A stretch of 64,000 nucleotides of DNA from Chryseobacterium rhizoplanae (GTDB taxonomy: Bacteria > Bacteroidota > Bacteroidia > Flavobacteriales > Weeksellaceae), in NCBI RefSeq assembly GCF_900182655.1, contig NZ_FXTC01000004.1:1-64000 (forward strand). Direction: 5' to 3'. This document shows positions 2,099 through 53,041 of the stretch, piece by piece; position 1 is the stretch's first letter; each line of letters starts with the position of its first letter. The translations under genes were made by a program, and so were the position numbers. Below the pieces are notes generated by a model. The model was given only the letters and a program-made list of their open reading frames with translations, searched no databases and had not been told where the DNA came from.

Positions 2099-5000
2099 AT
2101 GAAGAAGTATCCAATTCCTGCAAATGAAGAAGCCCGAATGAGGAAACTGGAGTTTTTTGATCTTTTGAACCTTGAAAAAGATCCCCAGTTAGACATTTTT
2201 GCAGAGACGGCATGCCTGGTGACCGATTGTCCCGCAGCACTTATTGCAATGATGGAAAGTGAAACCCAAACCATCCAAAGCTGTGTGGGTCTTGCCCTCG
2301 ATTTTGTAGACCGGAAAAATACGGTATGCCAATATTCTATTGCAAGTGGGGACATTGTAATTATCAATGATACTTTATTAGACGAAAGATCTTCTGATAA
2401 CGCAATTATTCTGGCGGGAGGAATCAGGTTTTATGCAGGAGTACCCCTGATTGATGATGAAGGATTCGTATTAGGAACCATCTGCGTTATCGATTATAAG
2501 CCTAAAACAATTACAGATGATCAGATTTCAACCCTGAAAAAAATAGGAGAGGCGATCACAAAAGTCCTGATGGGGAAAAGAAAAAATATTCAGGCTGAAT
2601 ACTTTCAACAGACCTTCAGTATTTCCAATAACCTGATCTGTGTTTTGGATAAGGATTTCACTATAAAAGAAGTCAATCCGGCTTTTGAAAGTACTTTTCA
2701 ATTGGAGAAGTCTCAGGTTATTAATCAGAATTTCCTCACTATTTTAGGCAGCCATAATTCCCAATTGCAATTACTTACCAAAAATCTGCCTATTACAGAT
2801 GGAGAAGTAACATTTACCACTTCTACAAACATAGATGATACACAGACTATTATTGTAGAATGGTCTCTGAAATTAAATCAGAAGCATTCTGAAATTTTCT
2901 GTTTCGGGATCAATATTACCCAGCGTATCGATGAAAAACTCAAACTTGAAAGTTCTGAACGCCGTTTCAGAAGCTTCTTCGAAAATGCAATAGGCCTGAT
3001 GAGTATGCATGATATGGAAGGGAATATTATTGCCGTAAACGAAAAAGGAAGAGAAACCCTGCAGTATTCCACAGAAGAAGTGGAAGGATTGAACCTAAAA
3101 GATCTTGTCCCTGAAAAAAACTGGCCGCTGCTGGAACAATACCTGGAAAGAATCAACAAAAATCAGGAAGACTTCGGAACCATGATCCTGAAAACCAAAG
3201 GAGGTGAAGAGGTCATCTGGATGTACCACAATCTGGTAGAAATCAACAAAGAAGGAAAACCTTATGTAGTAAGTACCGCACTGAATGTCACTGAAAGAAT
3301 GACGCTGGAAAAAGATCTTGTTCATACCAAAAAAATGCTGGAACAGACAAGTGCTGTGGCACAGGTGGGAGGATGGGAAGTGAATCTTAAAAAGAATACT
3401 GTATTCTGGTCACAATCTACCAGAGAGATACATAAAATAGATAAAACATTCCAGCCCGACCTGGAAAATGCACTGGGCTTCTATAGCGAAAAAAGCCGGG
3501 AAAAACTGAAATTATTATTCGAAAGAGCTGTAAAAGAAGGTATTCCCTACGATGAAGAGTTACAGCTTATCCGTAATGATGGTGTGATGATCTGGGTAAG
3601 GGTAAAAGGAATACCCGAGTTTGAGGAAGGAGCCTGTACCAGAGTATATGGAATCATTCAGGATATCGATAATTTCAAAAAAATCTACCTTGAACTGGCC
3701 AAAAAAGAGGCGATGCTTCAGTCATTCGTTACCTATGTTCCTGCAACGGTGGCTATGTTTGACAAAGAACTTAACTACCTTTCAGTAAGCAGCAGCTGGA
3801 AAGATGAGTTCCAGATGAATGACATCAGGCTGATTGGAGAAAATATGTTCAAAATTTCACCTAATGTACCGGATGAAAGAATAAAGATATATCAGGATGC
3901 CTTGGCAGGAATTGCCTATAAAAATGAAGACATGGCCATAGAAATTCCTGGTAAAGAAGTCATTCAGCATTACAATATAGAAGTTACGCCATGGTATCTT
4001 TCCACTCATACAATAGGCGGGATCATTGTTTCTGCACAAAATATTACAGCATCCGTAAGAATCAATGAAGAGCTTAAAAATGCCAAGAAAATGGCTGATA
4101 TTGCCAATAAAGCAAAATCTGAATTTCTGGCGAATATGAGCCATGAGATCAGGACTCCGTTGAATGGTGTCATCGGGTTCTCAGACCTTCTGCTAAAAAC
4201 TCCGTTGAATGAGATACAGACGCAATACCTCAATTATATTAATGAATCCGGAGAGAACCTGCTAAGCATCATCAATGATATTCTTGACTTTTCCAAAATA
4301 GAATCCGGAAAAATGGATTTTTCAATTGAGAGATCCAATGTGTATGATATTGTAAACCAGGTGATCAACGTGATCCTCTATCAGTCGCAGAAAAAGAATA
4401 TAGAATTACTGTTAAATATAGAGCCGGGACTTCCTGAAACCATTTGGGTGGATGAATCCAGACTGAAACAGATTCTGATCAACCTTCTCGGAAATGCTGT
4501 CAAATTTACAGCACAGGGAGAAATAGAACTTAAAGTAGAAAAGCTGAAGCTTGACCATAAAGATATCACCTTAAGATTTTCAGTGCGGGACACCGGAATT
4601 GGCATTCCTAAAGAGAAGCAGCAGTTTATTTTTGATGCCTTCACCCAGGAAAACAGCTCTATCAGCAAACGTTATGGCGGAACAGGACTTGGACTTACCA
4701 TCTCAAACAATATTCTGAAATATATGGGAAGCAGCCTGTCTTTGGTAAGCGAGGTTGATAAAGGTTCTGTTTTCTATTTTGACATTCAGATTCCTTGTGA
4801 AATGACAGAACGCCATGAAGATGAAGATCTGAAAATAAACAGAGTTCTTATTGTTGATGATAACGAAGCCAACAGAGTGATTCTCCAGCATATGCTTGCC
4901 TATAAAAATATAGATTCAAAGCTTGCTGCCAATGGTATGGAAGCCCTTCAGATACTTCTTGCAGGGGAACGCTTCGATGTTATTCTTATGGATTACCATA

Positions 5001-6007
5001 TGCCGATCATTTCGGGGTTGGAAACGATAGAAAAAATCAAGGAAATGTTTAACAAGCAAAATGAACTTTCACCTTTGGTTATCCTTCATACCTCTTCCGA
5101 AGAGCATGATGTCATCAATTCTTTCCGCCAGGAAAACAATTCTTACTTCCTGCTGAAGCCTATCAAATCTGAAGAGTTGTATAAAACATTGAAACAGGCC
5201 GTAAAGTTCACAGAAAAAGAAATCAGTCAAACTCCACAACCAGAAACAGAAGCTTCAGTACTGATGCAGGCACCTCAGGTTTTACTGGTAGATGACAACC
5301 CTGTAAATATGGTCCTGAACCACAAAATGGTGCGTTCCCTGATTCCCGATGCGGAGCTCACAGAAGCTACGGACGGCCTTCAGGCTTGGGAACAGTGCAA
5401 AGAAAAAACATTCAATATCATTTTAATGGATGTGCAGATGCCGGTAATGGATGGTATTGAAGCTACAAAACAGATTCGTTTACTGCCTGGCTATGCCGAT
5501 GTTCCGATTATTGGAGTAACAGCCGGAAATGTATTGGGTGAAAAAGAAAAATGCATGAATTCCGGGATGAATGATTTTCTGCCTAAACCTTTACGACAGG
5601 CCGATCTTCTGGAAATGCTGAAAAAATACATCATGAATAAAAATCATAAGGTCTCTGAGGATGCTCTGGACCAGACAAAATACCTTGACATCAATCTTTT
5701 GAATGAACAGATAGGCGATGATGATGAAGATTTCAGAAAAGTATTTTTGGATCTCGTAATACAGCAACTTACCCAAGCTGAAGAGGATATTAAAAAAAGT
5801 ACAGCTGAAAAAGACAGTACCACCCTGAAATTGATCCTTCACAAGCTTAAAGGAACAGCAGGAACAGCAGGATTGGTAAAGCTTACAAAAAATGCAGCCA
5901 GCTGGGAAAATAAAGCAGAACCCGACATGGATTTTATCGCCATGGAAAAAGAAATGATCCAGGAAATAACAACAGGATTACAATTAATTAAAAATTTAAT
6001 ACAATAA
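2099..6007 (+). CDS. Hybrid sensor histidine kinase, GAF-PAS(4)-HisKA-HATPase-REC-REC-Hpt
   Basis: A 1302-residue cytosolic phosphorelay protein with no signal peptide or membrane segment. In order: GAF domain (about 20-165), four PAS/PAC units (about 170-660), HisKA with phospho-His682 in SHEIRTPLNG, HATPase_c with N box (LINLLGNAVKFT), DTGIGIP and GGTGLGL, receiver 1 with Asp965 (LMDYHMP), receiver 2 with Asp1111 (LMDVQMP), and an Hpt domain with His1248 (LHKLKGTAGTAG). Every relay residue is present. It begins a run of four tightly spaced plus-strand genes (gaps of 12, 9 and -7 bases) ending in a glycosyltransferase-phosphotransferase fusion, so it probably tunes exopolysaccharide output. 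The lack of membrane segments suggests cytoplasmic cues; the ligand is unknown. Confidence 0.93.
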   Translation: MKKYPIPANEEARMRKLEFFDLLNLEKDPQLDIFAETACLVTDCPAALIAMMESETQTIQSCVGLALDFVDRKNTVCQYSIASGDIVIINDTLLDERSSDNAIILAGGIRFYAGVPLIDDEGFVLGTICVIDYKPKTITDDQISTLKKIGEAITKVLMGKRKNIQAEYFQQTFSISNNLICVLDKDFTIKEVNPAFESTFQLEKSQVINQNFLTILGSHNSQLQLLTKNLPITDGEVTFTTSTNIDDTQTIIVEWSLKLNQKHSEIFCFGINITQRIDEKLKLESSERRFRSFFENAIGLMSMHDMEGNIIAVNEKGRETLQYSTEEVEGLNLKDLVPEKNWPLLEQYLERINKNQEDFGTMILKTKGGEEVIWMYHNLVEINKEGKPYVVSTALNVTERMTLEKDLVHTKKMLEQTSAVAQVGGWEVNLKKNTVFWSQSTREIHKIDKTFQPDLENALGFYSEKSREKLKLLFERAVKEGIPYDEELQLIRNDGVMIWVRVKGIPEFEEGACTRVYGIIQDIDNFKKIYLELAKKEAMLQSFVTYVPATVAMFDKELNYLSVSSSWKDEFQMNDIRLIGENMFKISPNVPDERIKIYQDALAGIAYKNEDMAIEIPGKEVIQHYNIEVTPWYLSTHTIGGIIVSAQNITASVRINEELKNAKKMADIANKAKSEFLANMSHEIRTPLNGVIGFSDLLLKTPLNEIQTQYLNYINESGENLLSIINDILDFSKIESGKMDFSIERSNVYDIVNQVINVILYQSQKKNIELLLNIEPGLPETIWVDESRLKQILINLLGNAVKFTAQGEIELKVEKLKLDHKDITLRFSVRDTGIGIPKEKQQFIFDAFTQENSSISKRYGGTGLGLTISNNILKYMGSSLSLVSEVDKGSVFYFDIQIPCEMTERHEDEDLKINRVLIVDDNEANRVILQHMLAYKNIDSKLAANGMEALQILLAGERFDVILMDYHMPIISGLETIEKIKEMFNKQNELSPLVILHTSSEEHDVINSFRQENNSYFLLKPIKSEELYKTLKQAVKFTEKEISQTPQPETEASVLMQAPQVLLVDDNPVNMVLNHKMVRSLIPDAELTEATDGLQAWEQCKEKTFNIILMDVQMPVMDGIEATKQIRLLPGYADVPIIGVTAGNVLGEKEKCMNSGMNDFLPKPLRQADLLEMLKKYIMNKNHKVSEDALDQTKYLDINLLNEQIGDDDEDFRKVFLDLVIQQLTQAEEDIKKSTAEKDSTTLKLILHKLKGTAGTAGLVKLTKNAASWENKAEPDMDFIAMEKEMIQEITTGLQLIKNLIQ

Positions 6008-6019
6008 AAAAATAAAACG

Positions 6020-6373
6020 ATGTTGATTCTAATCGCCGAAGACGACGAACTGATTCTAAAAACAATAGAGCACAAATTATTAAAAGAAGGGCACGAAGTA
6101 ATCCTTACCCGCAATGGTAAAGATGCGATCGAAACCCTTAAAACCAAAGAGGTAGATCTGGCTATCACAGATATTATGATGCCCTTTGCCTCCGGAATTG
6201 AAATACTTTCTGCCATCAAAACAATGGGCAAGCAGATCCCGGTGATCATGCTCTCCAGTATGGGGCAGGAAGAAGTGGTACTGAATGCTTTTGACCTCGG
6301 AGCTGCCGATTTCATTGTCAAACCATTCAGCCCCAATGAATTGATATTAAGAATAAAAAGATTTTCAAAATAA
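6020..6373 (+). CDS. Single-domain response regulator (CheY-like)
   Basis: A 117-residue stand-alone receiver. The acidic pocket EDDE (residues 7-10), phospho-acceptor Asp51 (ITDIMMP), the conserved Ser/Thr (MLSS) and Lys in IVKPF are all visible. No output domain follows. It starts 12 bases after the hybrid kinase and 9 bases before the HEAT-repeat gene, so it is almost certainly the kinase's downstream partner. With no DNA-binding domain it must act by protein contact; the HEAT-repeat protein or the glycosyltransferase downstream is the obvious candidate target, which is inference from gene order. Confidence 0.92.
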   Translation: MLILIAEDDELILKTIEHKLLKEGHEVILTRNGKDAIETLKTKEVDLAITDIMMPFASGIEILSAIKTMGKQIPVIMLSSMGQEEVVLNAFDLGAADFIVKPFSPNELILRIKRFSK

Positions 6374-6382
6374 AATTCAGCC

Positions 6383-7447
6383 ATGTTTCTCACCACTTCT
6401 GTGCATTTTCTTTTTCTCGTATTTATGGGAATGCTTTCCTTGGTACTCTTACTGATCATAGCCGTGCTCATTTACAGCTTTTATCAGTATAGAGAATCCC
6501 TCCATATTTTCAGGTGGTCAGAAATGATCAATAAAAGAATCTCAGAAGTGATTGTATATGGTGAAGAAACCTCTGCAGATCATAACTTTTCGGCAGCCTC
6601 CGGAAATTCTTTATTCAGAAATTTATTCCTTCAGAAGCTGGCCGAATCCGAGAAGAAATTTTCCGGGGCAGCACAGCATACACTCAAAGGTCTTTTCCAG
6701 GAATATGGTCTTCAGGAAGAAGCATTAAAAAAACTGAATCAGAAAAAGATACATTTAATTGCCGGAGGCATACAGGAACTTACAGCAATGAATGTAGAAG
6801 AAGCACTGCCAAAGATTTCCACATTTTTAACGCATCCTTCAGCACAGGTTTACCAGGAAGCACAATATGCGATGGTTCATTTTAAAGGATTTGAAGGGCT
6901 TCATTTCCTGAACAGCATTTCAACAAAAATATCAGAATGGCAGCAGCTTCGTCTGCTTATTTCAGTCACCAGCATTCCTGAGGATTCCAGTGATAGTATT
7001 AAAAGCTGGGTTGAAAGTTCAAATGATTCAGTGGTCATTTTTACCCTTAATCTGTTAAGAAAATTTCAGGTATTATCACTTTATCCCACAGTTATTGATG
7101 TGCTGGATCATCCTTCTGTTGATGTTCGGCTACAGGCAGTACAGACATTGTTGTCCCTTGAAAATTCTTCAACCGTTGCCCACCTCATGGAAGTGTATCC
7201 TCAGCAGCCTCTTGAAGTGCAGAAAGAAATCCTTAAAGTAATGAAGAAGTCAAAAGACCAGTGCTCCGTAGACTTTCTGAAAGATCAATTGTTAAACAAC
7301 ACTGATTCAGGAATAAAAGTCTATGCAGCAGAAGCCCTATGTTCATTGGAAAAACAGGAATTCCTTGTAGAAACATCTAAAAACAACACTTCATCAGAAG
7401 AATTAATTCAAATCATTAAATACGCTTTACAGGAAAAAGTATGTTAG
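6383..7447 (+). CDS. Membrane-anchored HEAT-repeat protein
   Basis: A 354-residue protein with one N-terminal membrane segment (about residues 8-32), a linker, and a C-terminal array of HEAT-like helical repeats (for example PTVIDVLDHPSVDVRLQAVQ and IKVYAAEALCSLEK). HEAT arrays are protein-binding scaffolds. It lies between the lone receiver and the glycosyltransferase-phosphotransferase fusion and overlaps the latter by 7 bases, implying translational coupling. A reasonable reading is an adaptor that couples the phosphorelay to the membrane synthase; no catalytic motif is visible. The domain call rests on repeat pattern, not on a search. Confidence 0.82.
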   Translation: MFLTTSVHFLFLVFMGMLSLVLLLIIAVLIYSFYQYRESLHIFRWSEMINKRISEVIVYGEETSADHNFSAASGNSLFRNLFLQKLAESEKKFSGAAQHTLKGLFQEYGLQEEALKKLNQKKIHLIAGGIQELTAMNVEEALPKISTFLTHPSAQVYQEAQYAMVHFKGFEGLHFLNSISTKISEWQQLRLLISVTSIPEDSSDSIKSWVESSNDSVVIFTLNLLRKFQVLSLYPTVIDVLDHPSVDVRLQAVQTLLSLENSSTVAHLMEVYPQQPLEVQKEILKVMKKSKDQCSVDFLKDQLLNNTDSGIKVYAAEALCSLEKQEFLVETSKNNTSSEELIQIIKYALQEKVC

Positions 7448-10400
7448 AATTCTCACACATCATCTATGAAGTTGTTATCTGGGTGTTTCTGATTTACGGA
7501 ACAGCAATAACCCTTATCTATGGCTGGATAGGAATCTATGCACTTGGAGCTGTACTTCGTTATAAAAAAGAAAATACATTTACAGATTACAGCATTATTG
7601 CGGCCAATCCCAATGCTCCGGTATTCAGTGTTATTGCTCCGGCTTATAATGAGGGCATGACCATTGTAGAAAACGTCCGTTCTCTGTTATCCCTTTACTA
7701 TCATAATCTGGAAATTATCATTGTGAATGACGGAAGTAAGGATGACTCTATCCAAAAGCTTATTGAAGCTTACGAATTGGAATCCATAGCGTACTTCATC
7801 CAGGGAAAAATAGAAACCAATACGGTAAGAGGTGTTTATAAAAGTAAAAATCCTGCCTTTAAAAAGCTGATTGTTGTTGATAAAGAAAACGGAGGAAAAG
7901 CAGATGCCCTGAATGTGGGAGTGAATATTTCTTCCGGTGAATATCTGGTTTGTATTGACGTAGACTGTATTCTGGAGCAGGATGCGATTCTGAAACTCGC
8001 AAAACCAATGCTGGAACAGACTGATAAAAAGTTCATCGCCTGCGGTGGAGTCATTCGTCTGGCCAATAACTGCGTGATAGAAAATGGTAAAATAGTAAGT
8101 GTCAACATGCCGAAAACGCTTTTGGGCAGAACCCAGGCATTAGAATACATCAGAGCCTTTGTACTAGGACGTATGGCATGGTCCAGGGCATCAGGATTGA
8201 TTCTGATCTCCGGTGCTTTCGGAGTTTTTGACAGAAAAATAGTACTCGCTTGCGGTGGTTATGATAAAAACACAGTGGGAGAGGACATGGAGCTGGTGGT
8301 AAGAATGAGAAAGTACATGGAAGAAAAGAATGAACCTTATGAAGTACTTACCATTCCGGATCCTTTATGCTGGACAGAAGTTCCCGAATCTAAAGATATT
8401 CTCAGAAAACAGCGCAACAGATGGATGCGCGGAACGATGGAAACCCTGTGGAAGCACAGAAAAATGATGTTCAATCCAAAATACGGAAAATTAGGAATGA
8501 TCAGTCTTCCTTATTGGTTCTTTTTTGAATTTCTGGGTCCGTTAGTTGAGTTTTCAGGGTATATTATCTTTATTGTTTTTTTACTGCTGGGAATTATCAA
8601 CTGGCCATTCTTTACGGTTCTGTTTGCCCTCGTGATCTCAATGGGGTTTCTTTATTCTATCTATTCCATATTGGTAGATCTTGTAAGCCATCAGGTGTAT
8701 ACCAAAAGAAAAGATTTTCTCGCTCTCATTGTTACCGCCTTTTCGGAACCTTTTTATTTCCATCCTATTGTGGTAAAAGCAGGAGTAAGCGGGTTTATAG
8801 ATTATTTCAAAAAATCTCACGGATGGGGCGAAATGACAAGACAGGGCTTCAATCAAAGCACACAGCATTTACCTTTTAAAGAAAGAATGCTTGCTATTCT
8901 TCAGTCTGGCCTTAAAAGATGGGGAATACTCGCATTGGTTTTCTTTGCATTATTTTTAGTGGGAGTAACTGCAGAATGGTTATGGTACCGGTATACTTTT
9001 CCTAAATTTGATACCCCCGCGATTGTAGGGAATCTTTTCACAGAGAATATTTTATTTGCCCTAAGGTTCACATTTTGTGTTGGAGTTGCTTATCTGATTA
9101 TTAATTTCATCAAAGAAGGCTGGGCAAAGACCCTGGCAACTGTGGCTTTGCTTATTGTAACCGTTACCCAGTATATTTTATTCCTGTATTTCTCAGAAAC
9201 CCGGAATGTATTGGGGGCAGACCTTTTGTACTACAGTAAAGAAGAGATGAAGCAGATTTTACAGGCAAGCGGAATGCTTAATTTTAAGAACTTTGCCCTG
9301 CTGGGTATTTTAATAACAGCCTCTCTTGTTCCTATATGGATAGCCGGTAAAGCAGCCTTAAAATCCATTTATCCGGGACTTGTATTACTTGTTTTCGGAT
9401 TAGCAGCCTTTTTCATTCCATCCAATATATTAGGATCCAAAACCTTGAGCTCTGAGAATGAATTTAATCAAAATGCAGCAAAAAGTAAATGGGCATATTT
9501 CTTTAAATCCAATGAAGACAATTTCATCAGTGATCATCCTGAACTGAATGAGTTACTAAGTGAAAATGAAGATTTCACCACCAATGCTGAAATGCTCAAT
9601 AAAAATTTCCCTTTCTGGAGGAAAGAAAATACCCCGGATTTTTTAGGATCTTATTTTAACCGATCTGAGAAAGCTCCCAACCTTGTTTTTCTTATCATGG
9701 AAGGTTTCGGACATGCGTATACTTCACCAAAAGGATATATCGGGAACTTTACCCCTTACATGGATTCTCTGTCCGGCAAAGCATTGTATTGGGAAAGCGC
9801 TTTAAGCTCAGCGGGAAGAACATTTGGAGCATTGCCATCAATCACAGGATCGCTTCCTTTTGGAAAAAACGGATTCCTTGAAATTGAAAAAACACCGGAA
9901 AATTTCAATCTTTATAATATCCTGAAAGCTAACGGGTTTGAAACAGGTTTTTATTATGGAGGTCATACATCCTTTGACCGTTACCGTGAATTTCTTGAAT
10001 ATAGCGGGGTAGATCATATCATAGATGAACCCTCATTCAGCAGTCCTTACCGTAAGCTTCCCGCCAATAACGGAGAAAGCTGGGGATATGAAGATCAGGC
10101 AGTTTTTGGTAAAATGCAGCAACAGCAAAAGCCGCAGGACAGACCCTATTTCAATATGATTCTTACCCTTTCAACACATAATCCTTTTTTAATCAACAAT
10201 AAAGATTATTATGAAAAGCTCTACAATCAAAGACTAAATTCAGGTATTCTAACTTCTGAACAGAAGAAATGGGCCACAGTGCACAAAGACCAGCTGATTT
10301 CGGTTCTTAATGCCGATGATGCCATCAAAGGATTCTTTGAAAGTTACAGTAAACGTCCGGATTTCAAGAATACCATTTTTGTGATCACGGGAGATCACAG

Positions 10401-10878
10401 TATGCCTGAGATCACATTAGAATCTAAAATTGACAGATTCCATGTACCTTTAATCATCTATTCACCCTTATTGAAAGAATCAAAACGTTTCTATAAAACG
10501 GTAAGCCATTTTGATATTGCACCTTCTATTTTGGCTTATTACCGAAATAATTATAAGCTCAGTACACCCTCTACAGTAACATGGGTAGGAAGAGGGTTTT
10601 CTCCGGATTCCGAAATCAGCAAAACCGGAATTCCAATGATGCAGAGTAAAAACCAGCTGATTGATTTTGTTTCTGAAAAGTATTATATCCATGACGGACA
10701 GCTTTTCACCCTGAAAGACATGGAAGAAGATGCCTCCAATGATAACGCAGCCCTGAATAAGATCAACGGCAGATTCAACCAGTACAAAAGCATGAATTCT
10801 CAGTTTTATTCTACTAAAAAACTGATGCCTGATTCGGTAATGGTCAACTTTAAGAAAAAAGTAAAATCAAAGTTCTAA
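7441..10878 (+). CDS. Family-2 glycosyltransferase fused to LtaS-like phosphotransferase
   Basis: A 1145-residue membrane protein with two enzymes in one chain. The N-terminal half (about 1-480) is a processive GT2 of the BcsA/PgaC/NodC type: Asp97 in NDGSKDD, DVD at 173-175, GED at 280-282 and QRNRW at 324-328, flanked by membrane helices. Further helices (about 490-660) lead to an alkaline-phosphatase-superfamily domain (about 745-1090) like lipoteichoic-acid synthase: Glu754 (MEGFG), presumed nucleophile Thr794 (GRTFGALPS), His913 (THNPF), Asp985-His986 (GDHS) and a late histidine in SHFD. It would polymerise a beta-linked glycan and then add or transfer a phospho-linked group. The gene overlaps the HEAT-repeat gene by 7 bases and ends 4 bases into the opposing YaiO-family gene. 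The polymer and modification are not known. Confidence 0.9.
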   Translation: MLEFSHIIYEVVIWVFLIYGTAITLIYGWIGIYALGAVLRYKKENTFTDYSIIAANPNAPVFSVIAPAYNEGMTIVENVRSLLSLYYHNLEIIIVNDGSKDDSIQKLIEAYELESIAYFIQGKIETNTVRGVYKSKNPAFKKLIVVDKENGGKADALNVGVNISSGEYLVCIDVDCILEQDAILKLAKPMLEQTDKKFIACGGVIRLANNCVIENGKIVSVNMPKTLLGRTQALEYIRAFVLGRMAWSRASGLILISGAFGVFDRKIVLACGGYDKNTVGEDMELVVRMRKYMEEKNEPYEVLTIPDPLCWTEVPESKDILRKQRNRWMRGTMETLWKHRKMMFNPKYGKLGMISLPYWFFFEFLGPLVEFSGYIIFIVFLLLGIINWPFFTVLFALVISMGFLYSIYSILVDLVSHQVYTKRKDFLALIVTAFSEPFYFHPIVVKAGVSGFIDYFKKSHGWGEMTRQGFNQSTQHLPFKERMLAILQSGLKRWGILALVFFALFLVGVTAEWLWYRYTFPKFDTPAIVGNLFTENILFALRFTFCVGVAYLIINFIKEGWAKTLATVALLIVTVTQYILFLYFSETRNVLGADLLYYSKEEMKQILQASGMLNFKNFALLGILITASLVPIWIAGKAALKSIYPGLVLLVFGLAAFFIPSNILGSKTLSSENEFNQNAAKSKWAYFFKSNEDNFISDHPELNELLSENEDFTTNAEMLNKNFPFWRKENTPDFLGSYFNRSEKAPNLVFLIMEGFGHAYTSPKGYIGNFTPYMDSLSGKALYWESALSSAGRTFGALPSITGSLPFGKNGFLEIEKTPENFNLYNILKANGFETGFYYGGHTSFDRYREFLEYSGVDHIIDEPSFSSPYRKLPANNGESWGYEDQAVFGKMQQQQKPQDRPYFNMILTLSTHNPFLINNKDYYEKLYNQRLNSGILTSEQKKWATVHKDQLISVLNADDAIKGFFESYSKRPDFKNTIFVITGDHSMPEITLESKIDRFHVPLIIYSPLLKESKRFYKTVSHFDIAPSILAYYRNNYKLSTPSTVTWVGRGFSPDSEISKTGIPMMQSKNQLIDFVSEKYYIHDGQLFTLKDMEEDASNDNAALNKINGRFNQYKSMNSQFYSTKKLMPDSVMVNFKKKVKSKF

Positions 10879-12107
10879 AACTTTCTGGTATAGCCTAGTG
10901 TAATATCAAACTGATTCCCTTTTTCACCCGGACGGTATTCCTGGTTATAATACATGGTTCCTATAGAAAACAGATTGGAATGGTAGGAGAAATTGTATTC
11001 ACCTCCTATTTTAAACGTTTTAAGCTTAAAGGTTTCATTTTCCAGAAGGTTGTTGCGGTTTTCTTCCGGACTGATCCCGGTTCCGATCTGAAAAGCAAAA
11101 TAATCTTGGGCACCTTTTGTATAATACCTTACAGTTCCCGTATAAGAATGTGAAATATTCTTGCTATCTGGAGTGATATAAGTACGCAGATTAAACCAGA
11201 AATTTTTATAATATTTCCCTACGGCAGCGGTATACATCCAGATACTGCTGCTGAAATAAAGCTGGCGGTATCCTATTTCTGCTTCAAAACTATGGGGAAG
11301 ATTGGCATTCAAGGAAACTCCGGTTCTGTACTTCGGAAACAAGCCGACATCATCAGAATATCCTCCGCCAACATACAGGTAGAATATTTTAGAAAGCCGT
11401 GGGTAAGCCTCCAGTTCAATCTGTGTGCCGCCCTGGGCAAATTTATTGGCATAATTTCCGCGAAGAATCACAGAACCAATAGGAGTAATTCTCTTATAAC
11501 TTACTCCTACAATATGCCAGTCATCATCAAACTGCTTGTCGAAGTGAGAATAATTATAAACAATTCCTATGGCATTTTTAGAATTAAGCTCATTGATTCT
11601 TACCGCAAGAGCCCTTGCTTCAGTATTTTTAGGATTGATGGACAAAAGCGTAGTTACAGCTTTATCCGCTTCCTCATAATTATCCATCCCAAAATACACT
11701 TTCGCTTTCAGCAATAACAATGTTTCAGATTTAGGATGATAGGAGAGTCCTTTATCTAAGATTTCAATAGCTTTTGTATTCTGGTCATTCCAGTATTCCA
11801 ATGAAGCATAAGCCAGAAAATAATCTTCATCCTGAACTTCTTTTTTTCCAAGCTCTTCAAATACAGCCCTTGCAGAAACCAGGTCTTTGTTCCAGGTATA
11901 CAGCCTTCCCAGGAAAACTGAAATATCCGTATAATTAGGCGCTTTTTCCAATGCCTCTTTAGCCAGAGCAATAGATGCAGGATAATCTTTCTGTTCAAAA
12001 GCAGCATTCCGGGCTTTAAGGAATAATTCATCAGCGGATAAATTCTGCTGACTATACATTGTGATTGGAAAAAGTAATGCAAATAAAAAGGTTGAATATC
12101 TTTTCAT
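10875..12107 (-). CDS. TPR plus YaiO-family outer-membrane beta-barrel protein
   Basis: A 410-residue exported protein: signal peptide (about 1-19, ending MYSQQ), TPR-like repeats (about 20-165), and a C-terminal outer-membrane barrel of alternating aromatic strands ending in LGYTRKF, typical of the YaiO family. TPR-plus-barrel proteins such as PgaA and BcsC export polysaccharides, and in E. coli yaiO neighbours the GT2 gene yaiP. It converges on the GT2-phosphotransferase gene with a 4-base 3' overlap, so the two can affect each other's transcript ends. Export of the polymer made by that enzyme is a context-based inference. Confidence 0.85.
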   Translation of the reverse strand: MKRYSTFLFALLFPITMYSQQNLSADELFLKARNAAFEQKDYPASIALAKEALEKAPNYTDISVFLGRLYTWNKDLVSARAVFEELGKKEVQDEDYFLAYASLEYWNDQNTKAIEILDKGLSYHPKSETLLLLKAKVYFGMDNYEEADKAVTTLLSINPKNTEARALAVRINELNSKNAIGIVYNYSHFDKQFDDDWHIVGVSYKRITPIGSVILRGNYANKFAQGGTQIELEAYPRLSKIFYLYVGGGYSDDVGLFPKYRTGVSLNANLPHSFEAEIGYRQLYFSSSIWMYTAAVGKYYKNFWFNLRTYITPDSKNISHSYTGTVRYYTKGAQDYFAFQIGTGISPEENRNNLLENETFKLKTFKIGGEYNFSYHSNLFSIGTMYYNQEYRPGEKGNQFDITLGYTRKF

Positions 12108-49555: not shown

Positions 49556-52500
49556 TTATTTAGTTGCTTTGATAATCGCAGTAGTAATCTGATTTTCTTT
49601 TTCTTTTGAATAAGTAGAATCATAAGGTTCCATGACATCAAATAAATACTGATAGAATGGCGTGATCTGCTGTACATTTTCAGACTCTTTCATCGCCTTA
49701 TCTCTGCCCATCTCCTGAAGATCTTTAACAAATACATTGAACTTCTTATCAATAGGCTCAATAGATTTTACCAGATAAGCATACGCTTTTTCTTTCTGTC
49801 CGATCTTAGTGTAAGCATCCGTTACAGCAGCTACTACAAGAGAATATTCCATAGGTTTTGTTCTCATTTGTCTTCTCAGGTAGCTTTGGTCTGCTTTGGA
49901 AAGGCTTAAATAATAATCGTATTCTTCAAAGATTCCTTTTTTAAGAACCTCAGCAAGTTGAAGGCCTTTCTGCTCCTGTCCTGCAATGATGTATCCTGAT
50001 ACAATTGAGCTTAATGAACGAGGGTCGTTATATTTCTCAGCAGGAATTTCTTTGGCTGCAAGATCCAGAATTTCTAAAGCTTTAGCTTTTTGTCCGTTTA
50101 ATGCAAGTGCCGCTGCAGCTCTGCTCGCTGACATTCTGTAGCTGATGATATTGGAAGTAGCCGTTTCATCAAAGTGAGCATTTAAGTTTTTGAAGTTCCC
50201 CCATCTGAAGTTTTTCACCACATTATAAAGAGAATTCGCATCTACTCTTCCCATATCGCCATCAGCCGTCGGAGGCGTTTGGATAGGGATTAATCTGTAA
50301 CTGAATCCGTCAAACTGAAGGTAATCGTTAAGATAGAAAATGTTTTCACTGTCATAAATACCTCCTGATGAGAAGTTGATAGGACGTTTCCAGTCGAAGT
50401 TCGCTAAAAGATCCATCAAAATCAGGTTATTCTTATACAATGTATTTCCTTTGTAAGTAATCATAATCTGATTGGCTACATTCGGAAGATCTTCTTTGTT
50501 GATGATTCCTGCTTTTAAAGCATTTTCTTTATTGACAGGAAGAATGAATTTGTTTACCGGAAGGATATTGTATTTTTCAAATTTCTCTTCCCCGAAGTAC
50601 ATTTTCAATAATTCGTCTTTTTCAGGAGATTTGAATTTAATGAATTCAATGGCTTGTTTCAATGTTAAAGAATCCTGAGTAAGATATTTTCTGAAAGACT
50701 GGAATTCTGTTTCCGGTGCTCCCTGTTCTTTCAACATAGAGAAAACACCTTCCCAATCTTCTTTCTTCATCATATAGATCTGGTCATTTACACCATCTCT
50801 GTAATCTTCGTGGGTCAGCTGGCTAGGGATTCCCATAGCGTTGTAAGTTCTTCTCTTGATCTGATCAAGGTTCCAGGGCGTTGAAGCAAGGGTAAAGTTT
50901 ACTACCTTCACATCATCTCTGAATCTTTCTGTCTCCTGAATTGCCCAAACCGGATAAGTATCGTTATCTCCGTAAACGAAAAGGATATCGTCTTTCGGTA
51001 ATGATTTTAAAACTGAATATGCATAATCGTAAGCGGTATATCTGTTGCTTCTGTCATGAACATTGTAGTTCTGGAAGCCCATCATGAAAGGAACTCCTAA
51101 TAAAACCACACCTAGAGCAATGTTTGCTCCATTTGACTTTATTTTAGACTGCAGGAACCATAGAATTGCTCCTGCTCCCATACCAATCCATATTGCAAAT
51201 GCGTAGAATGAGCCTACCATTGCGTAATCTCTTTCTCTCGGTTCAAAAGGTTTTACCCCTGTATAGAAAATAATTCCTACACTTGTTAATATAAATAAAG
51301 ATAACAGTGCATAGAATCTTCCGAAGTCCCTGTTTAACTGGAAAAAGAATCCAATAAGACCTAAAATTAACGGAAGGAAGAAGAATTTTACCGTACTTTC
51401 ATTTTTGAATTTAGCAGGCAGTTTATCCTGGTTTCCTACATTTACATTATCTATAAAAGGAATACCGGAAATCCAGTTCCCTTTTGTACTTTCCATATTT
51501 CCTTCAAGGTCGTTCTGTCTTCCTACGTAGTTCCACATCAGGTATCTTACGAAGTAATATCCGTTCTGGAAAGAAATGAAATACTCCATATTCTGAAGGA
51601 ATGAAGGCTTCTGAACATTGATAAGGTTATAAGGTTTTACTTTCAGATAATCTGCAGCAGTGATTGACTTGTCTTCATATTTTGCTCTCAGCTCATCAAA
51701 AATCTGCTTAGCCTGTGGGTTATCTGCCACATCTTCATTTCCATAATTGAATGTAAAATCAGGAGCTCCATACATTGAAATATAGTTAGCCATTACATCT
51801 TTATCCTCGTTAAACATTCTAGGCATTAAGCTTACCTGAGATTTGTTGAAGACATAATTGAAACGGTCTCCTGTCTTTCTGTATGTTCCGGTTTTCTCGT
51901 CTTTTTCATAGATCTCACCGGTTTTTTGGGTCTTAAAGCTTCCGTCTTCATTCTTTTCAATTCCGTTAGCATCAAGGAATGCTGTATAGTTCTGTCCGTA
52001 GATCGTAGGCCAGTCACCATACTGCTCTCTGTTATAATAATCCAGCATACCAATTGCAGTATCAGGATCATTAAGATTCATTGGCGGATTAGCATTGGCT
52101 CTGATAGGAATAACCATCCAGCAAGAGAACCCAATCATCATGAAAACCACAGATAATGCAGCAGTCTGATAGATGTTTTTCTTTGCTTTTCTTGCATATT
52201 TGATTAAGAAATAACAGATTGCTACCATTAAAACAAAAGCGGCAATTGTTCCGGAATGGAAAGGAAGTCCAAGACCATTCACAAAGAAAATCTCAAGTCT
52301 TCCGAACATCGTCATAATCAAAGGGAAGATAATTTTGAAAACAATAATCAAAATCCCCAGCGTAATAAGGTTAGCCCAGATAAAGTTTTTCCAGGTAAAC
52401 TTATAGTTTCTTGCATAATATACCAGACATACTGCAGGAATTGCCAGCATACCCATCATATGCACCCCTACAGAAAGTCCTAAAACGAAGAAAATAAGAA

Positions 52501-53041
52501 TAATCCATCTTTCACTGTCTCCCGCTTTGTACTCATTCTCCCATTTGGTGATTAACCAGACCAAAAGCGCGATAAACATAGAAGCCATAGAGTAAACCTC
52601 TCCTTCTACTGCAGAGAACCAGAATGTATCTGAGAAGGTAAAGCAAAGTGCTCCTACTGCTCCTGCAAATAAAATAGAGATTTCCTGATGTTTTGTAATT
52701 TCTTCAAAATCTTTGTTCAGAAGTCTTCTCACAAAATGTGTGATCGTCCAGAACAAAAATAAAATAGTCAGCGCACTGAACAATGCAGACATCGCGTTGA
52801 TTACGATGGAATAATTTTCGCCTTTCCCTAATGCAAAAATGGCTGCCACGGCACCCACTATCTGGAATAAAGCTGCTCCGGGAGCATGCGTTACTTCAAG
52901 TTTTACTGCAGAAGAAATGTACTCGCCACAATCCCAAAAACTGAAATTGGGTTCTATGGTGGACAAGTACGTGAAAAACGCAATGACGAAAATCACCCAT
53001 CCTAAAACGGTGTTCCATTGCCTAAAAGTCCAATTTTTCAT
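49556..53041 (-). CDS. GT117 (DUF2723) membrane protein, probable O-glycosyltransferase
   Basis: An 1161-residue protein. The start (WNTVLGWVIFVIAFFTYLSTIEPNFSFWDCGEYISSAVKLEVTHAPGAALF) is the GT117/DUF2723 signature with an acidic CGEY/WDCGE catalytic loop; about eleven to twelve membrane segments follow, then a large soluble C-terminal region with TPR-like repeats (about 950-1120). Animal homologue TMEM260 adds mannose to proteins. In Bacteroidota it is linked to the general protein O-glycosylation or another envelope glycan. It stands alone. Confidence 0.85.
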   Translation of the reverse strand: MKNWTFRQWNTVLGWVIFVIAFFTYLSTIEPNFSFWDCGEYISSAVKLEVTHAPGAALFQIVGAVAAIFALGKGENYSIVINAMSALFSALTILFLFWTITHFVRRLLNKDFEEITKHQEISILFAGAVGALCFTFSDTFWFSAVEGEVYSMASMFIALLVWLITKWENEYKAGDSERWIILIFFVLGLSVGVHMMGMLAIPAVCLVYYARNYKFTWKNFIWANLITLGILIIVFKIIFPLIMTMFGRLEIFFVNGLGLPFHSGTIAAFVLMVAICYFLIKYARKAKKNIYQTAALSVVFMMIGFSCWMVIPIRANANPPMNLNDPDTAIGMLDYYNREQYGDWPTIYGQNYTAFLDANGIEKNEDGSFKTQKTGEIYEKDEKTGTYRKTGDRFNYVFNKSQVSLMPRMFNEDKDVMANYISMYGAPDFTFNYGNEDVADNPQAKQIFDELRAKYEDKSITAADYLKVKPYNLINVQKPSFLQNMEYFISFQNGYYFVRYLMWNYVGRQNDLEGNMESTKGNWISGIPFIDNVNVGNQDKLPAKFKNESTVKFFFLPLILGLIGFFFQLNRDFGRFYALLSLFILTSVGIIFYTGVKPFEPRERDYAMVGSFYAFAIWIGMGAGAILWFLQSKIKSNGANIALGVVLLGVPFMMGFQNYNVHDRSNRYTAYDYAYSVLKSLPKDDILFVYGDNDTYPVWAIQETERFRDDVKVVNFTLASTPWNLDQIKRRTYNAMGIPSQLTHEDYRDGVNDQIYMMKKEDWEGVFSMLKEQGAPETEFQSFRKYLTQDSLTLKQAIEFIKFKSPEKDELLKMYFGEEKFEKYNILPVNKFILPVNKENALKAGIINKEDLPNVANQIMITYKGNTLYKNNLILMDLLANFDWKRPINFSSGGIYDSENIFYLNDYLQFDGFSYRLIPIQTPPTADGDMGRVDANSLYNVVKNFRWGNFKNLNAHFDETATSNIISYRMSASRAAAALALNGQKAKALEILDLAAKEIPAEKYNDPRSLSSIVSGYIIAGQEQKGLQLAEVLKKGIFEEYDYYLSLSKADQSYLRRQMRTKPMEYSLVVAAVTDAYTKIGQKEKAYAYLVKSIEPIDKKFNVFVKDLQEMGRDKAMKESENVQQITPFYQYLFDVMEPYDSTYSKEKENQITTAIIKATK

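Follow-up and report, generated by a model that had tools for sequence, protein, structure and literature searches.

A GT2 synthase fused to an LtaS-type transferase in a conserved, predicted exopolysaccharide gene cluster of Bacteroidota

A single gene in Chryseobacterium rhizoplanae joins a GT2 polysaccharide synthase to an LtaS-type phosphotransferase, and lies in a cluster (histidine kinase, receiver domain, HEAT-repeat protein, fusion and YaiO-type protein) that is conserved across Bacteroidota. It was identified in a stretch of 64,000 nucleotides, the whole of which is referred to here as the window. We consider it probable that this protein drives, from the inner membrane, a synthase-dependent exopolysaccharide system, the chain of which would be phospho-decorated after extrusion and exported via the YaiO-type protein. 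The component parts are of known kinds; no description of the fusion or of its conserved cluster was found in the open literature, a coverage that excludes most subscription-journal papers. From sequence and structure models, the cluster probably makes a surface polysaccharide that carries phosphate groups and has yet to be studied.

The fusion, located by its open reading frame, Pfam, AlphaFold2 and Foldseek, occupies positions 7441-10878 on the forward strand, as do the domains given below; the frame opens with ATG and runs for 1145 codons to its stop with no internal stops. An earlier note on this DNA had described a polymerase and an LtaS-like phosphotransferase in one 1145-residue polypeptide, and the intact frame bears this out. 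The GT2 motifs D97, DVD 173-175, GED 280-282 and QRNRW 324-328 are where that note had placed them, as are the LtaS-like residues E754, T794, H913 and D985-H986. Pfam matches above the gathering cut-offs were obtained for Glycos_transf_2 (residues 63-192, 74 bits), Glyco_tranf_2_3 (residues 61-331) and Sulfatase (PF00884, residues 746-1032, 109.6 bits). The GT2 catalytic domain, delimited by Pfam, motifs and fold, spans residues ~50-340 (7588-8460) and carries the D, DxD, (T/G)ED and Q(Q/R)xRW signatures; it is followed by the interface and transmembrane (TM) helices of the synthase at residues 346-456 (8476-8808; AlphaFold2 and hydropathy), the presumed polymer channel. These motifs on a GT-A domain, with TM helices behind it, place this half among the processive GT2 synthases (BcsA/HasA/PgaC-like). 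The second half consists of an LtaS-type five-TM anchor at residues 479-660 (8875-9420; hydropathy, model helices and alignment with PbgA/YejM) and an LtaS/OpgB-type catalytic domain at residues 740-1100 (9658-10740; PF00884, PDB profile and fold matches, and conservation), in which the nucleophile T794 is encoded at 9820-9822 and E754, D985, H986 and H913 are the metal/phosphate residues. Five TM helices together with an alkaline-phosphatase-fold domain bearing E, T, D and H identify it as an LtaS/OpgB-type phosphotransferase (COG1368-like). A type I sulfatase was rejected: the C/S-x-P-x-R formylglycine motif is absent, and the nucleophile region reads GRTFGALPS.

Structure prediction, a check that the earlier note had proposed, returned a hyaluronan/cellulose synthase-like half joined to a VP1736/LtaS-like half. 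The final AlphaFold2 model was built on 91 sequences (mean pLDDT 87.6, pTM 0.62) and superseded a 15-sequence model with a pLDDT of 71; at this pTM, the placement of the GT2 half relative to the LtaS half is uncertain. In the model, a long N-terminal helix leads into the GT-A domain, after which come four membrane/interface helices (346-383, 388-416, 423-435 and 440-456), a weak linker (457-478), five membrane helices (479-657) and the alkaline-phosphatase-fold domain. When compared with the PDB by Foldseek, the GT2 half matched hyaluronan synthase (8sne/7sp7) and the cellulose synthase BcsA (4p00/9b8v), and the LtaS half matched VP1736, LtaS and LtaP; the five-TM membrane part also aligns with PbgA/YejM in its full-length structures (6v8q and 6xlp). 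Hyaluronan synthases and BcsA extrude their own product chain.

Profile searches gave a compatible placement of the second half. Against PDB sequences, a profile of the LtaS part matched VP1736 (1.6e-31) and LtaS/LtaP (1e-9 to 1e-13), with no match to EptA, MCR or BcsG; against E. coli proteins, it found OpgB and not BcsG. Since the profile matches none of these three, membership by sequence in the EptA/BcsG/MCR-type branch of phosphoethanolamine (pEtN) transferases was ruled out for this half. LtaS proper, the lipoteichoic acid synthase, was likewise rejected (NF053595, 30 bits against a cut-off of 970). For the GT2 half, the best NCBIfam match was PgaC/IcaA (TIGR03937), but its 129 bits fall far below the 422-bit cut-off and the equivalog assignment was discarded.

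The first search, of 24 genus genomes, recovered the intact full-length fusion from nine: G000, the window's own, and, at 61-98% identity, the eight other Chryseobacterium genomes G002, G009, G013, G016, G018, G019, G020 and G023. A tenth has a truncated copy. The truncated form (G008:C2, ~302396-304498; L047/L147) ends after residue 701, retaining the five TM helices and losing the catalytic domain, with the YaiO gene directly behind. Open full-length frames are present in dozens of named genomes, the closest being Chryseobacterium at 92% protein identity, and the fusion is carried by, among other named relatives, Chryseobacterium, Kaistella, Sphingobacterium, Myroides, Empedobacter, Olivibacter, Hydrotalea and Sediminibacterium. 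Both halves evolve under purifying selection: within the genus, the GT2 half has a dN/dS of 0.03-0.04 and the LtaS half one of 0.06-0.14 (membrane part 0.08-0.14, catalytic part 0.06-0.09). The split forms in relatives lie only a few nucleotides apart, a spacing that a sequencing or assembly artefact could have closed; however, the full-length frames in eight other genus genomes and dozens of named genomes, and dN/dS values that are low to either side of the junction, make such an artefact extremely improbable. Because the frame is intact and full-length in nine genus genomes, the fusion is due neither to chance nor to a sequencing frameshift, and the frameshift splitting the gene that the earlier note had named as a possible refutation is excluded.

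That note had also stated that synthase and phosphotransferase are usually separate proteins, and this holds among relatives, 40 of which have the two genes side by side, with intergenic gaps of -29 to +37 nt (two samples). Across 90 Bacteroidota loci, the GT2 and LtaS genes are fused in 18, adjacent on the same strand in 12 and nearby in 11; the other 49 have no LtaS gene near the GT2 gene, so decoration is optional for the polymer. A single ancient fusion was rejected, as the GT2 tree does not admit the fused rows as one clade (p-AU 1.3e-49). A wider, rougher tree (FastTree) gave nine fused/split state changes, at least six of them forced by strong branches; some of the nine may be fissions. 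Given this co-occurrence and repeated fusion, we infer that the GT2 and LtaS-type halves serve a common product. The transferases of one flavobacterial subgroup have a C-terminal TPR tail that resembles the TPR part of YaiO (L060, L061, L070, L071 and L101), and fusions there are ordered GT2-LtaS-TPR (L049, L068, L078 and L194); the tail may dock the transferase to the exporter. Locus L090 (5000-17000) contains a tandem pair of GT2 clusters, only one of which has an LtaS-TPR gene, and related Flavobacterium fusions pair a GT2 like that of its second cluster with an LtaS-TPR like that of its first.

The catalytic residues of both halves are strongly conserved. No substitution of D97, D173, E281, D282, Q324, R325, R327 or W328 was seen in 90 related GT2 domains. 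The E/T/H/D/H set of the LtaS site is complete in 34 of 40 relatives, two more having Ser in place of Thr. A marine flavobacterial clade (L067, L073, L077 and L088) has a separate LtaS-type protein lacking the nucleophile and metal residues, possibly, from its sequence, a pseudo-enzyme with a structural role; the HEAT protein of this clade is enlarged to ~700-860 aa. We weighed whether the LtaS-type half of the fusion, like PbgA/YejM, has a chiefly structural or regulatory role that does not need catalysis. The loss of the nucleophile in that clade, the truncated G008 copy and the 49 GT2 loci without LtaS are in keeping with such a role, but the site is complete in the window protein and in all 15 fusions of alignment A1, and the catalytic domain is constrained to the dN/dS given above; we regard a mainly structural role as quite improbable. 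To judge by the nucleophile-less clade, the domain may have a structural role in addition to an enzymatic one.

To place the fusion in its genomic context, we annotated the surrounding genes. Upstream, on the forward strand, are a hybrid histidine kinase of 1302 aa (2099-6007; GAF-PAS-HisKA-HATPase-2xREC-Hpt by Pfam), which is kept upstream in same-genus loci; a stand-alone response-regulator receiver (REC) domain of 117 aa without an output domain (6020-6373; PF00072); and a 354-aa protein with an N-terminal TM helix and HEAT repeats (6383-7447; Pfam HEAT_2), whose frame overlaps that of the fusion by 7 nt. Downstream, on the reverse strand and convergent with the fusion (4-nt overlap), is a 410-aa YaiO-family outer-membrane TPR and beta-barrel protein (10875-12107; PF19413, 222.8 bits; TIGR04390, 191 bits), the presumed export channel; the assignment is by Pfam and NCBIfam, a custom YaiO profile having missed E. 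coli YaiO. Among the 90 related loci, a single-REC gene lies within four genes of the GT2 gene in 65, a HEAT gene is near it in 77 (5' of it where loci were inspected) and a YaiO-type gene in 74. By gene content, the synthase with an outer-membrane TPR/beta-barrel gene in the same locus makes this a synthase-dependent exopolysaccharide secretion system, with export predicted; family resemblance suggests that the YaiO-type protein would be the exporter. The earlier note was right to see a polymerase and an LtaS-type transferase in one protein, but the system extends beyond the fusion to the YaiO channel, the HEAT protein and the two-component regulator. No PilZ domain was found at this system, where the REC/HEAT pair is present instead. 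Several clusters include a conserved protein of ~390 aa adjoining YaiO (L057:5843-7030, L059:10048-11217 and L066:9655-10827), for which Pfam returned nothing in the three cases tested, and NCBIfam and the PDB nothing in the one case compared with them.

Together, these observations suggest the following scheme. The GT2 half would polymerize a sugar from its nucleotide form in the cytoplasm, and the chain would be threaded through the membrane helices of the synthase itself. The LtaS-type half would sit on its five-helix anchor with the catalytic domain in the periplasm, where T794 would accept the phosphate-containing head group of a membrane phospholipid and hand it on to the chain as it emerges. 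Once decorated, the polymer would leave through the YaiO-type protein, and the histidine kinase and output-less receiver would probably gate the synthase via the HEAT membrane protein, with the REC protein as the likely switch. The nascent polymer as acceptor and a phospholipid as donor are what we infer; a different molecule may be the acceptor instead of the polymer. That the chain is made and decorated in one step, as the earlier note had concluded, is unlikely: with the GT2 site expected in the cytoplasm and the transferase site in the periplasm, decoration would follow extrusion. A further alternative is that the LtaS-type half, rather than decorating the repeats of the chain, anchors or ends it by a phosphodiester bond with a lipid or an envelope component. 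One transferase per synthase would be enough for a single end-linkage, and LtaS/LtaP-type enzymes also form linkages to glycolipid anchors. We nevertheless consider anchoring unlikely, because a YaiO-type channel suggests release through the outer membrane and the precedents all decorate a glucan: cellulose in E. coli is modified by the five-TM pEtN transferase BcsG, three copies of which BcsA recruits (PMC11470070), and the donors from which OpgB and OpgE decorate periplasmic glucans are phosphatidylglycerol (PG) and phosphatidylethanolamine (PE) (PMC3818809).

For decoration of the emerging chain, the candidate donors were assessed by genomic inference. The genome of the window has Psd and a single CDP-alcohol phosphatidyltransferase, whose best match is pssA (85 bits against a 107-bit cut-off); PgpA was not found in this genome, a weak negative, as most control genomes lack it too. 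No pgsA (TIGR00560) scored above its cut-off in any of the 19 fusion-bearing genomes searched, several control genomes also missing the cut-off, and five fusion-bearing genomes have the PssA-like enzyme only. Because a PssA-like enzyme and Psd are present and PgsA was not detected, pEtN is favored; we give a PE-derived group about an even chance, PG distinctly less, and any other donor less again. PE is the major phospholipid of Chryseobacterium, for which PG is not listed (PMC5167729). All of this counts against the reading in which the LtaS-type half is an OpgB-like phosphoglycerol transferase that draws on PG and adds glycerol phosphate, the less probable alternative just graded. By sequence and fold, however, the closest characterized relatives are LtaS, LtaP and OpgB, not the pEtN transferases, and this kinship suggests phosphoglycerol. 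The studied LtaS/OpgB-type enzymes use PG, which conflicts with the apparent absence of PgsA; the fusion-bearing genomes may possibly encode a divergent PG synthase. The pocket residues of LtaS that bind glycerol phosphate (H347, D349, W354 and R356 in S. aureus numbering; PMC4973235) align with Y839, G841, D846 and Y848 of the fusion and are thus not kept. OpgB, a known phosphoglycerol enzyme, also lacks this set, so its absence does not disqualify phosphoglycerol and these residues cannot decide the donor. Many other Chryseobacterium genomes have a second CDP-alcohol phosphatidyltransferase of ~200 aa (L144:624-1223 and L145:532-1062), which is absent from five fusion-bearing genomes. Elsewhere in the genome of the window (G000:C3:206554-208733; L137, L141), another LtaS-like gene is divergent beside the only PssA-like phosphatidyltransferase gene.

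Several known systems resemble parts of this one. The E. coli type II Bcs system likewise combines a processive GT2 synthase, a five-TM periplasmic transferase of the alkaline-phosphatase fold and an outer-membrane TPR/barrel exporter, but its BcsG is a separate, EptA-type protein outside the reach of the LtaS-part profile, and Bcs uses c-di-GMP via PilZ whereas the Chryseobacterium cluster has the REC/HEAT pair. OpgH and OpgB also pair a GT2 membrane synthase with a transferase of LtaS/OpgB type that works on the synthase's glucan, and OpgB is within the profile's reach; unlike the fusion, they are encoded separately, yield a periplasmic oligosaccharide rather than an exported polymer, and use PG as donor. 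Gram-positive LtaS and LtaP share with the fusion five TM helices, an extracellular domain, the metal and nucleophile residues and the fold, but LtaS polymerizes glycerol phosphate, and the fusion lacks its pocket residues and carries a GT2 synthase. The E. coli YaiO/YaiP/YaiS and NfrA/NfrB/YbcH loci also join a GT2 synthase to an outer-membrane TPR/barrel or YaiO-domain protein, tailoring enzymes being present in the Yai system; neither locus has an LtaS-type transferase, and NfrB is controlled by c-di-GMP. PgaC/IcaA, the poly-N-acetylglucosamine (PNAG) synthase, is the nearest NCBIfam relative of the GT2 half, but only far below cut-off, and the fusion cluster has no PgaB deacetylase.

Phospho-decoration alters the charge, host recognition and biofilm properties of a polymer, and the well-known cases are few: pEtN-cellulose, osmoregulated glucans and teichoic acids. 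Repeated, independent natural fusion ties the transferase to one particular synthase across a large phylum and puts the question of donor and acceptor within one protein; it also offers a possible LtaS-type enzyme in cells seemingly without PG. We tentatively propose, at clearly less than even confidence, that one linked protein chain of synthase, LtaS-type pEtN transferase, in some lineages a TPR tail, and YaiO makes, decorates and exports an undescribed, widespread surface polysaccharide of Bacteroidota, switched by REC via HEAT and not by c-di-GMP.

The same genome has another synthase-tailoring fusion, in which a second GT2 synthase (G000:C8:54500-59500; L148:1675-4980) is joined to a NodB-type deacetylase, with an N-terminal domain that appears GH18-like by eye. 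The window also encodes, at 49556-53041 on the reverse strand, a 1161-aa protein with PF11028 (TMEM260-like protein O-mannosyltransferase).
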